From NCBI GenBank assembly GCA_023255955.1, contig JAGDWD010000008.1, forward strand, positions 192,845 through 256,844: a stretch of DNA of 64,000 nt, written 5' to 3'. Position numbers and translations under genes: made by a program. Origin of the DNA: Desulfurococcales archaeon. GTDB taxonomy: Archaea > Thermoproteota > Thermoprotei_A > Sulfolobales > NBVN01. Under the pieces are notes generated by a model. That model saw only the letters and a program-made list of their open reading frames with translations, did no database searches and was not told the origin of the DNA. Positions 2,922 to 49,825 of the stretch are shown in pieces. The number at the start of each line of letters is the position of its first letter. Positions within the stretch are counted from its first letter, which is position 1.

Positions 2922-3374
2922 CTATCTCACCTGGATACCCATCTCACTAAGGTGTCTTTTCAGGTCTGAAAGACTTGCGAAGGCTCCTCCCTTTGCTAGC
3001 TGGCGGAGTCTTCGGTAGGTACTAGAGTCCAGTACTTCATTATCCTTCAACCACTTGAGATACCTCCTAATCTTTCTTATGGTGTTCACCCACTTCTTAT
3101 GTGGATCCTCCCTAGCGGTCTTAGAACCCTTTCTCTTTCCCGGCCCCCTACGATGACCTTTTTTCCTTTTCTCATGTCTTTCCTTCCACCTAGCTCTAGA
3201 GTTCCTCCCGCTCTGCTCAGCCCATATAGCCCCGTCCTTTATCAACCTCCTAATATCATCCTTAGTTAGTGCAGACTCTATCTCACTTATTCTCTCGGGG
3301 TCGAACCTTACCCTCGTCTCCCCAACCCCGAGTATCTCTGCTGCGAGCCTCCGCTGAAGTGAGAGGTCGGCCAT
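2922..3374 (-). CDS. rpl19e: 50S ribosomal protein L19e (eL19)
   Basis: Archaeal/eukaryal-only large-subunit protein, 150 aa. It shows the L19e signature: [20 protein letters not shown] at the N-terminus, [10 protein letters not shown], then a long basic helix with [19 protein letters not shown] and [18 protein letters not shown]. Its ATG overlaps the stop of L32e by one base. Confidence 0.96.
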
Positions 3375-47655: not shown

Positions 47656-48050
47656 CCAGCCCCCACTCTAAGATAATAACCCCGTCCCTCCCAAAACAAA
47701 CACCAAAGAACCCCTCAACAGAAAAGCTTATAAACCCCTACATTCCATCACATAGAAAAACCTCCCTAGTTTTTCCTAAGGTAACCATAGGAAGAAGACT
47801 CAGCAAATAAAAGCTTTTCGGTCACTGGAACTACGTTACCTAAAGAACCATTCTATACCTAGACATCGTCAGTTTTCCCATGGCGACCATAGGATCTCAA
47901 TGTATAGACCGGGTCGGGAGCTTACTTGGACCCCGCTTAAAAAGACCCTAGGGAGCTGAGTACCCTACCCAGAGGAAAAGCTTAAATACCTAGACACCAA
48001 TAATACTTGGATCTGAATCTGATAGATAGAGATGGCTAGCCCACCACACA
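47656..48050 (+). promoter_or_regulatory. CRISPR leader with repeated promoter-like blocks
   Basis: 395 bp with no gene. AAAAGCTT occurs three times (47722-47729, 47809-47816, 47975-47982), the first and last followed by TATA-like ATAAACC and AAATACC. ACCATAGGA is repeated at 47784 and 47886, TACCTAGACA at 47856 and 47986. The last TATA (CTTAAATA) predicts array transcription from about 48008, some 43 bp ahead of repeat 1. A repeat-like relic GAATCTGATAGA stands at 48015-48026. Confidence 0.65.
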
Positions 48051-49825
48051 GAATCTAAAAGATAGAATTGAAAGTCCTAGCACCGCCCTTTACGTGCCTG
48101 ACCGGCAACCTCAGAATCTAAAAGATAGAATTGAAAGTCCTAGCCACAACGACGGACATAACCCCCACAGAGGTTACGTTCGAATCTAAAAGATAGAATT
48201 GAAAGACCACCGCCACCGCCGCCCTTAGCACCAGTAAGTGTTGCAGCGTGAATCTAAAAGATAGAATTGAAAGGTGCACGTACCTGACTGCGACACAGCC
48301 TTAAGCCCGGAACCGTGAATCTAAAAGATAGAATTGAAAGACCAATTTTGTCGTGCTTTAGTGCGTGCTTACCTAAAGAGTAGAATCGAATCTAAAAGAT
48401 AGAATTGAAAGCTACGGAGTGTGTTTTACGATGTTTTGAGAGGTTATGCTACAGCGTCAAGCCTTGAATCTAAAAGATAGAATTGAAAGCTTCACAGCTA
48501 TCAGGAGACAACGTAGTTGAGTTGTTAGACTGAATCTAAAAGATAGAATTGAAAGCAGATAAGACAAATACCGTATCTAAGCGAGGTACTGGAGAGAATC
48601 TAAAAGATAGAATTGAAAGAGCACTAAGACCCTGACAGTACCTCCCGCGGACGTCGAGTTGATGAATCTAAAAGATAGAATTGAAAGTAACGAGTTGCTG
48701 GCGTCTCAGGTCTCGATGTTTCTGACCATCAGGAATCTAAAAGATAGAATTGAAAGTTGAGTACCCCGTGTCGTTACCTAACCCAGTAACCACGCTACCG
48801 AATCTAAAAGATAGAATTGAAAGGCTGGAGCCGAACCCTTTTTCTGTTCCTCTGTTCTCTACTGTGAATCTAAAAGATAGAATTGAAAGGCGGTACGCAG
48901 GTAGTACCGAGGACTGGCTCTACAACCTCGAATCTAAAAGATAGAATTGAAAGTCTTTATCTCCTCGGCCAGCATTGCAGCCTCTAGCATTGTCGGAATC
49001 TAAAAGATAGAATTGAAAGGGTGGGGTACTATGTCCATTGCTATTGATGTCGGTAAGGAAGAATCTAAAAGATAGAATTGAAAGTTGGCGTAGGCATCCC
49101 TACCGGCTGCGTCGGTGACACCAGGAATCTAAAAGATAGAATTGAAAGTATCTCCAAGCTTTATTGTGTACGACCTCCCGCGCTTCTCCACGTCCAGGAA
49201 TCTAAAAGATAGAATTGAAAGAGGATAGTGTCTCCAAGCCACCTAAACCACCCGCCGATATCTTCTTGAATCTAAAAGATAGAATTGAAAGTGAGGCCCG
49301 CCTGAGTTGCGGGCCGAATGGAATTGAAAGAGAATCTAAAAGATAGAATTGAAAGATATTTTCGCGGTCTTGTACCGTTAAGTCTCTCTGCTAGACCTGA
49401 ATCTAAAAGATAGAATTGAAAGTCCTGGAGGAGCTGGCGAGCTACGTGAGAACCTATGTGGAGCGTGAATCTAAAAGATAGAATTGAAAGGTTTTTCCTC
49501 AACCGCCTCACGCATTTCATTGAATTCTACAGAATCTAAAAGATAGAATTGAAAGTCTTCCTCACGCTACCGATTTCACCCTCGAACCAGTCCCTGAGAA
49601 TCTAAAAGATAGAATTGAAAGCATTAGCTACTCACTAGAACAATATTTATTCTTATCACCAAGAATCTAAAAGATAGAATTGAAAGTAAGCTCTACTATT
49701 ACTACTACTCCATACTTGCTGCTATGGCAGGAATCTAAAAGATAGAATTGAAAGTGCTCCACCGCCTTGCTAAGCACACACATGAAGTGTGCTCCAGTCT
49801 CGAATCTAAAAAATAGAATTGAAGG
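48051..49825 (+). CRISPR. CRISPR array, 27 repeats of 24 bp, 26 spacers
   Basis: Repeat begins GAATCTAAAA and ends GATAGAATTGAAAG. I count 26 identical copies starting at 48051, 48114, 48182, 48250, 48317, 48388, 48466, 48532, 48596, 48664, 48733, 48800, 48866, 48930, 48996, 49061, 49125, 49198, 49268, 49332, 49399, 49467, 49532, 49598, 49663, 49731, plus a degenerate terminal copy at 49802-49825 (two changes). Spacers are 39-54 nt, mostly 40-47. The degenerate end puts the leader on the left. No cas gene lies in the window. Repeat style (ending ATTGAAAG) is that of crenarchaeal type I-A/III arrays. Confidence 0.99.

Follow-up and report, generated by a model that had tools for sequence, protein, structure and literature searches.

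An ordinary-length CRISPR spacer with a repeat-like 3' tail in an archaeal array

Stand-alone CRISPR repeats occur in the viruses and plasmids of Sulfolobales (PMC6858448), and archaea can acquire spacers from the chromosomes of related species (PMC7694759). Mini-CRISPR arrays in the same mobile elements (PMC6858448), the solitary repeat units known as Racr (PMC10651486), and the ectopic repeats of creA (CreTA; PMC8501985) are further described cases of repeats away from conventional arrays. The spacer analyzed here (spacer 19, or unit 19) lies inside an array and carries a repeat-like sequence at its own 3' end.

The array occupies positions 48051..49825 (+ strand) of the window, the whole 64,000-nt stretch of DNA that was analyzed, and comprises 27 copies of the repeat GAATCTAAAAGATAGAATTGAAAG separated by 26 spacers. 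All but one of the repeats (26 of 27) are identical. The exception is the terminal repeat (49802-49825), whose degeneracy places the leader side upstream of the array; the probable leader, assigned from this polarity, spans 47740..48050 (+). Two similar 22-nt stretches upstream of the array (47771-47792 and 47873-47894, 82% alike) are perhaps leader motifs, and spacers 1 and 2 (48075-48181) have their first seven bases (TCCTAGC) in common. A HAD-family gene neighbors the array on one side and PCNA and primase genes on the other. Contigs 5 and 7 of the 13-contig draft assembly bear three further arrays built from the same repeat. The sole Cas1 that we found is on contig 7, in a locus that also holds Csa1, Cas2, Cas4, Csa3, Cas6, and Cas3''; this locus is a type I-A system, which serves the array in trans. 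Outside arrays, a single perfect copy of the repeat sits between molybdopterin oxidoreductase and radical SAM genes (L041:1077-1100; G000 C3:30076).

Unit 19 (TGAGGCCCGCCTGAGTTGCGGGCCGAATGGAATTGAAAGA; 49292..49331, +) is an anomalous 40-nt sequence present in a single copy in the assembly. Like a normal CRISPR spacer, it sits between two intact repeats, the perfect repeats 19 (49268..49291, +) and 20 (49332..49355, +). Its hairpin, GGCCCGC-CTGAGTT-GCGGGCC (49295..49315, +), has a 7-bp GC stem and a 7-nt loop and is followed by the repeat-like tail GAATGGAATTGAAAG (49316..49330, +); a single base, A at 49331, separates the tail from repeat 20. On re-reading, the coordinates and letters given for the unit in the original prediction were all correct. 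That prediction also held that unit 19 is not a normal spacer, yet its length is normal and falls within the range of the 139 spacers of its own genome (37-54 nt). Among 1005 spacers from related arrays, the shortest has 28 nt and the second shortest 34. An origin from a tRNA or other RNA family was rejected, as Rfam returned only two tRNAs in the window.

To compare the tail with its own repeat, we scored the 1005 spacers (27 repeat types) for matches at the 3' end, within a few bases, to the 3' end of the repeat of their own array. The match covers 0-6 nt in 1003 of them, 10 nt in unit 19, and 11 nt in a spacer from genome G035. By chance, about 0.006 end-anchored matches of 10 nt or more would be expected per 1005 spacers, a figure that overstates the case because the pool includes loci fetched for such patterns, and 1.6e-4 for the 26 spacers of the array. 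The tail is nevertheless repeat-like, as had been proposed, beyond chance and in register with repeat 20. Its description as the repeat lacking nine internal bases and carrying one A-to-G change is a valid gapped alignment (14/15) in which GAAT and 11 nt of the tail match both ends of the repeat with one change. Other alignments exist, however: the last 10 nt are identical to the repeat, and the last 12 nt align to it without gaps at 11 of 12 positions. The tail also retains the 8-nt handle ATTGAAAG. When 214 genomes of the order were searched for such patterns, the same two cases, unit 19 and the G035 spacer, came up and no third. Setting G035 apart, the other tail-then-repeat matches in these genomes were rejected as normal repeats before spacers that start with GAATC or as strays outside arrays. 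Likewise, no further repeat-abutting tail emerged, judged from the matched strings alone, when 398 genomes were scanned for pairs of ATTGAAAG handles spaced 15-30 nt apart. Array spacers of the same order at L069 and at G350 C1:2532779-2532850 contain GAATTGAAAG or AATTGAAAG in an internal rather than terminal position.

The second case belongs to another family of the same order (L011/L053; G035 C1:100292). The spacer, AATCTCCTTAAGAGAATTATAAAAAAAGAATGGAATAGAAA, lies near the trailer end, adjoins the next repeat, and ends in the 3' 11 nt of its own repeat. Its tail equals that repeat minus 8 internal nt, exactly, and the last 14 nt of the tail are identical, too, to the degenerate terminal repeat of a further array in G035. 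The 5' part of the spacer is repeat-like as well (GAATCTC..GAGAATT). If the tail is counted as a repeat, the neighboring spacers measure about 27 and 0 nt. The end of this tail, AATGGAATAGAAAG, occurs in the order only as scattered single copies and never as an array repeat.

Three other families of the order have intact repeats that end in exactly the last 14 nt of the unit 19 tail, AATGGAATTGAAAG (ungapped, 14/14). Repeats with this ending include GAATCCGATAAATGGAATTGAAAG and GAATCCGCTCAATGGAATTGAAAG, and GGAATTGAAAG has no other occurrence in the genome of unit 19. Judged by its letters, the tail is therefore not necessarily a broken local repeat; were the donor repeat one that ends in AATGGAATTGAAAG, as in several relatives, the A-to-G change would vanish. 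The 14-nt match is the longest sense match among the 1005 spacers and 27 repeats, and shuffles reach 13 nt. Taken alone, this identity is suggestive but weak and no proof, because the antisense control also contains 12-14-nt matches to some repeat, one of them reaching 14 nt. Immediately 5' of the 14-nt tail, the next 10 bases bear no likeness to the 5' half of known repeats, a point against a repeat-bearing donor. The same 15-mer as the tail ends an ectopic, degenerate repeat in genome G084. On contig C68 of that genome (L104, ~3010-3115), two divergent repeat-like sequences surround 48 nt in an ectopic mini-array that is creA-like in form; cas genes were not seen on this short contig.

The hairpin had been singled out as a special element but is ordinary among spacers: stems of at least 7 bp are present in 33 of the 1005 spacers (27 repeat types) and in 5 of the 139 from the same genome. 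The hairpin alone has a folding energy of -13.9 kcal/mol and the complete 40-nt unit one of -15.3 kcal/mol (z -2.7 vs shuffles), which ranks it third most stable of the 139 and 21st of the 1005. Because the predicted fold covers guide positions 4-24, unit 19 is probably a poor guide.

We infer, with roughly even confidence, that unit 19 is an ordinary-length spacer of foreign origin, acquired in a single capture from donor DNA in which the 3' end of a CRISPR repeat was present. Uptake would have been one event, carried out by the type I-A Cas1-Cas2-Cas4 machinery, and the donor would be either an array or degenerate ectopic repeat of another archaeon or a stand-alone repeat borne by a virus or plasmid. 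A single capture is favored because the length of the unit is normal and both flanking repeats are perfect; the non-chance tail, its 14-nt identity to foreign repeats, and the type I-A adaptation module also support it. Against it, a fragment taken in random phase from an array should not stop exactly at a repeat border, and both known cases do; the G035 tail, moreover, fits local breakage. Furthermore, no exact or near-exact donor was found in the unit's own genome, 98 relatives, 211 genomes of the order, phages, plasmids, IMG/VR, or GTDB contigs, nor any with up to 3 mismatches in 398 genomes of the phylum; viral and genome contigs scanned for exact matches yielded none, and the viral and plasmid collections searched gave no match beyond chance. 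The lack of a donor is weak evidence, since a protospacer is found for only some 6% of spacers in Sulfolobales (PMC6858448) and the array's other 25 spacers had no significant match to phage records either. Several candidate matches have only a seed in common with the spacer and were rejected as chance: those to a tail 18-mer (viral L043-L047 and bacterial genomes L048-L050), to a foreign-repeat pattern (L042), and to a hairpin 17-mer (L109).

Chance resemblance and local breakage are live rivals. It is possible, although rather unlikely, that unit 19 is an ordinary spacer from a virus or plasmid whose end resembles the repeat by accident. Accidental matches to repeats can be long, as the 14-nt antisense match illustrates, the hairpin is ordinary, and scanning many windows picks up rare coincidences. 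What argues against an accident is the end anchoring, with two matches of at least 10 nt seen where about 0.006 per 1005 spacers are expected (subject to the overstatement noted above) and a next value down of only 6 nt.

The view of the original prediction, in which a local array event left a 24-nt spacer, an internally deleted 15-nt repeat, and a 1-nt remnant, is more doubtful. It draws on the fit of GAAT and 11 nt to both ends of the local repeat and on the same architecture in G035, where the tail is the local repeat with 8 internal nt removed. However, it requires several separate events (24-nt and 1-nt spacers, a 9-bp deletion, and a substitution), the 24-nt spacer would fall below the range of the 1005, the total length is normal in both cases, and the neighboring repeats are all perfect. 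During adaptation, the leader-proximal repeat serves as the template for every new one. A truncated repeat could thus not be the source of the perfect repeats that lie toward the leader, and the damage would have to be later. A local repeat broken by slippage therefore no longer stands as the leading idea, with every other repeat letter-perfect save the terminal one and spacers of 24 and 1 nt otherwise unseen.

A less probable proposal is that prespacers are made at repeat borders: the integrase would cut exactly at the 3' end of a repeat, foreign or ectopic, and capture of the resulting ~40-nt fragment would leave a repeat-tailed spacer. Within the favored capture reading, it is conjecture that the donor fragment stopped at the border through integrase cutting at precisely that point; this would account for the tail at the spacer end both here and in the second genome. 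An assembly error or chimera is very improbable; the genome is a draft of 13 contigs and arrays are repetitive, but a join at repeats would produce whole repeats rather than a shortened and substituted one, and the neighboring repeats are exact. An internal terminator or processing signal, also raised in the original prediction, is scarcely credible and has no support, for although the hairpin is stable and Cas6 cutting at the ATTGAAAG handle of the tail is conceivable, no T-run follows the stem, a terminator scan at unit 19 yielded no terminator-like site, other spacers hold equal or stronger hairpins, and the unit is unique in the genome.

We regard unit 19 as a real but minor oddity, a rare curiosity with no new mechanism, and most likely a normal spacer from repeat-bearing foreign DNA. 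Should the donor have been the array of another archaeon or a stray repeat on a mobile element, the unit would record the entry of CRISPR-derived DNA into a cell and its storage as memory. It also provides a concrete example of how one might misread a spacer as a broken repeat. The understanding of CRISPR is unchanged unless further cases show systematic capture at repeat borders.

Compared to an ordinary type I-A spacer, unit 19 is alike in its position, 40-nt length, perfect flanks, and the presence of type I-A adaptation genes in the genome, and unlike in having a 3' end that reproduces that of a repeat. Viruses and plasmids of Sulfolobales carry stand-alone repeats and mini-CRISPR arrays (PMC6858448), and these, like the solitary repeat units or Racr (PMC10651486), present repeat-like sequence outside its array context and are possible donors. 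However, they are borne by mobile elements, whereas unit 19 holds 14-15 nt of such sequence within a spacer and a viral copy was not found in the collections searched. Unlike creA (CreTA; PMC8501985), unit 19 has no toxin gene, is not near cas genes, and is inside an array; like the ectopic repeats of creA, its tail combines a divergent 5' part with a conserved 8-nt handle end.
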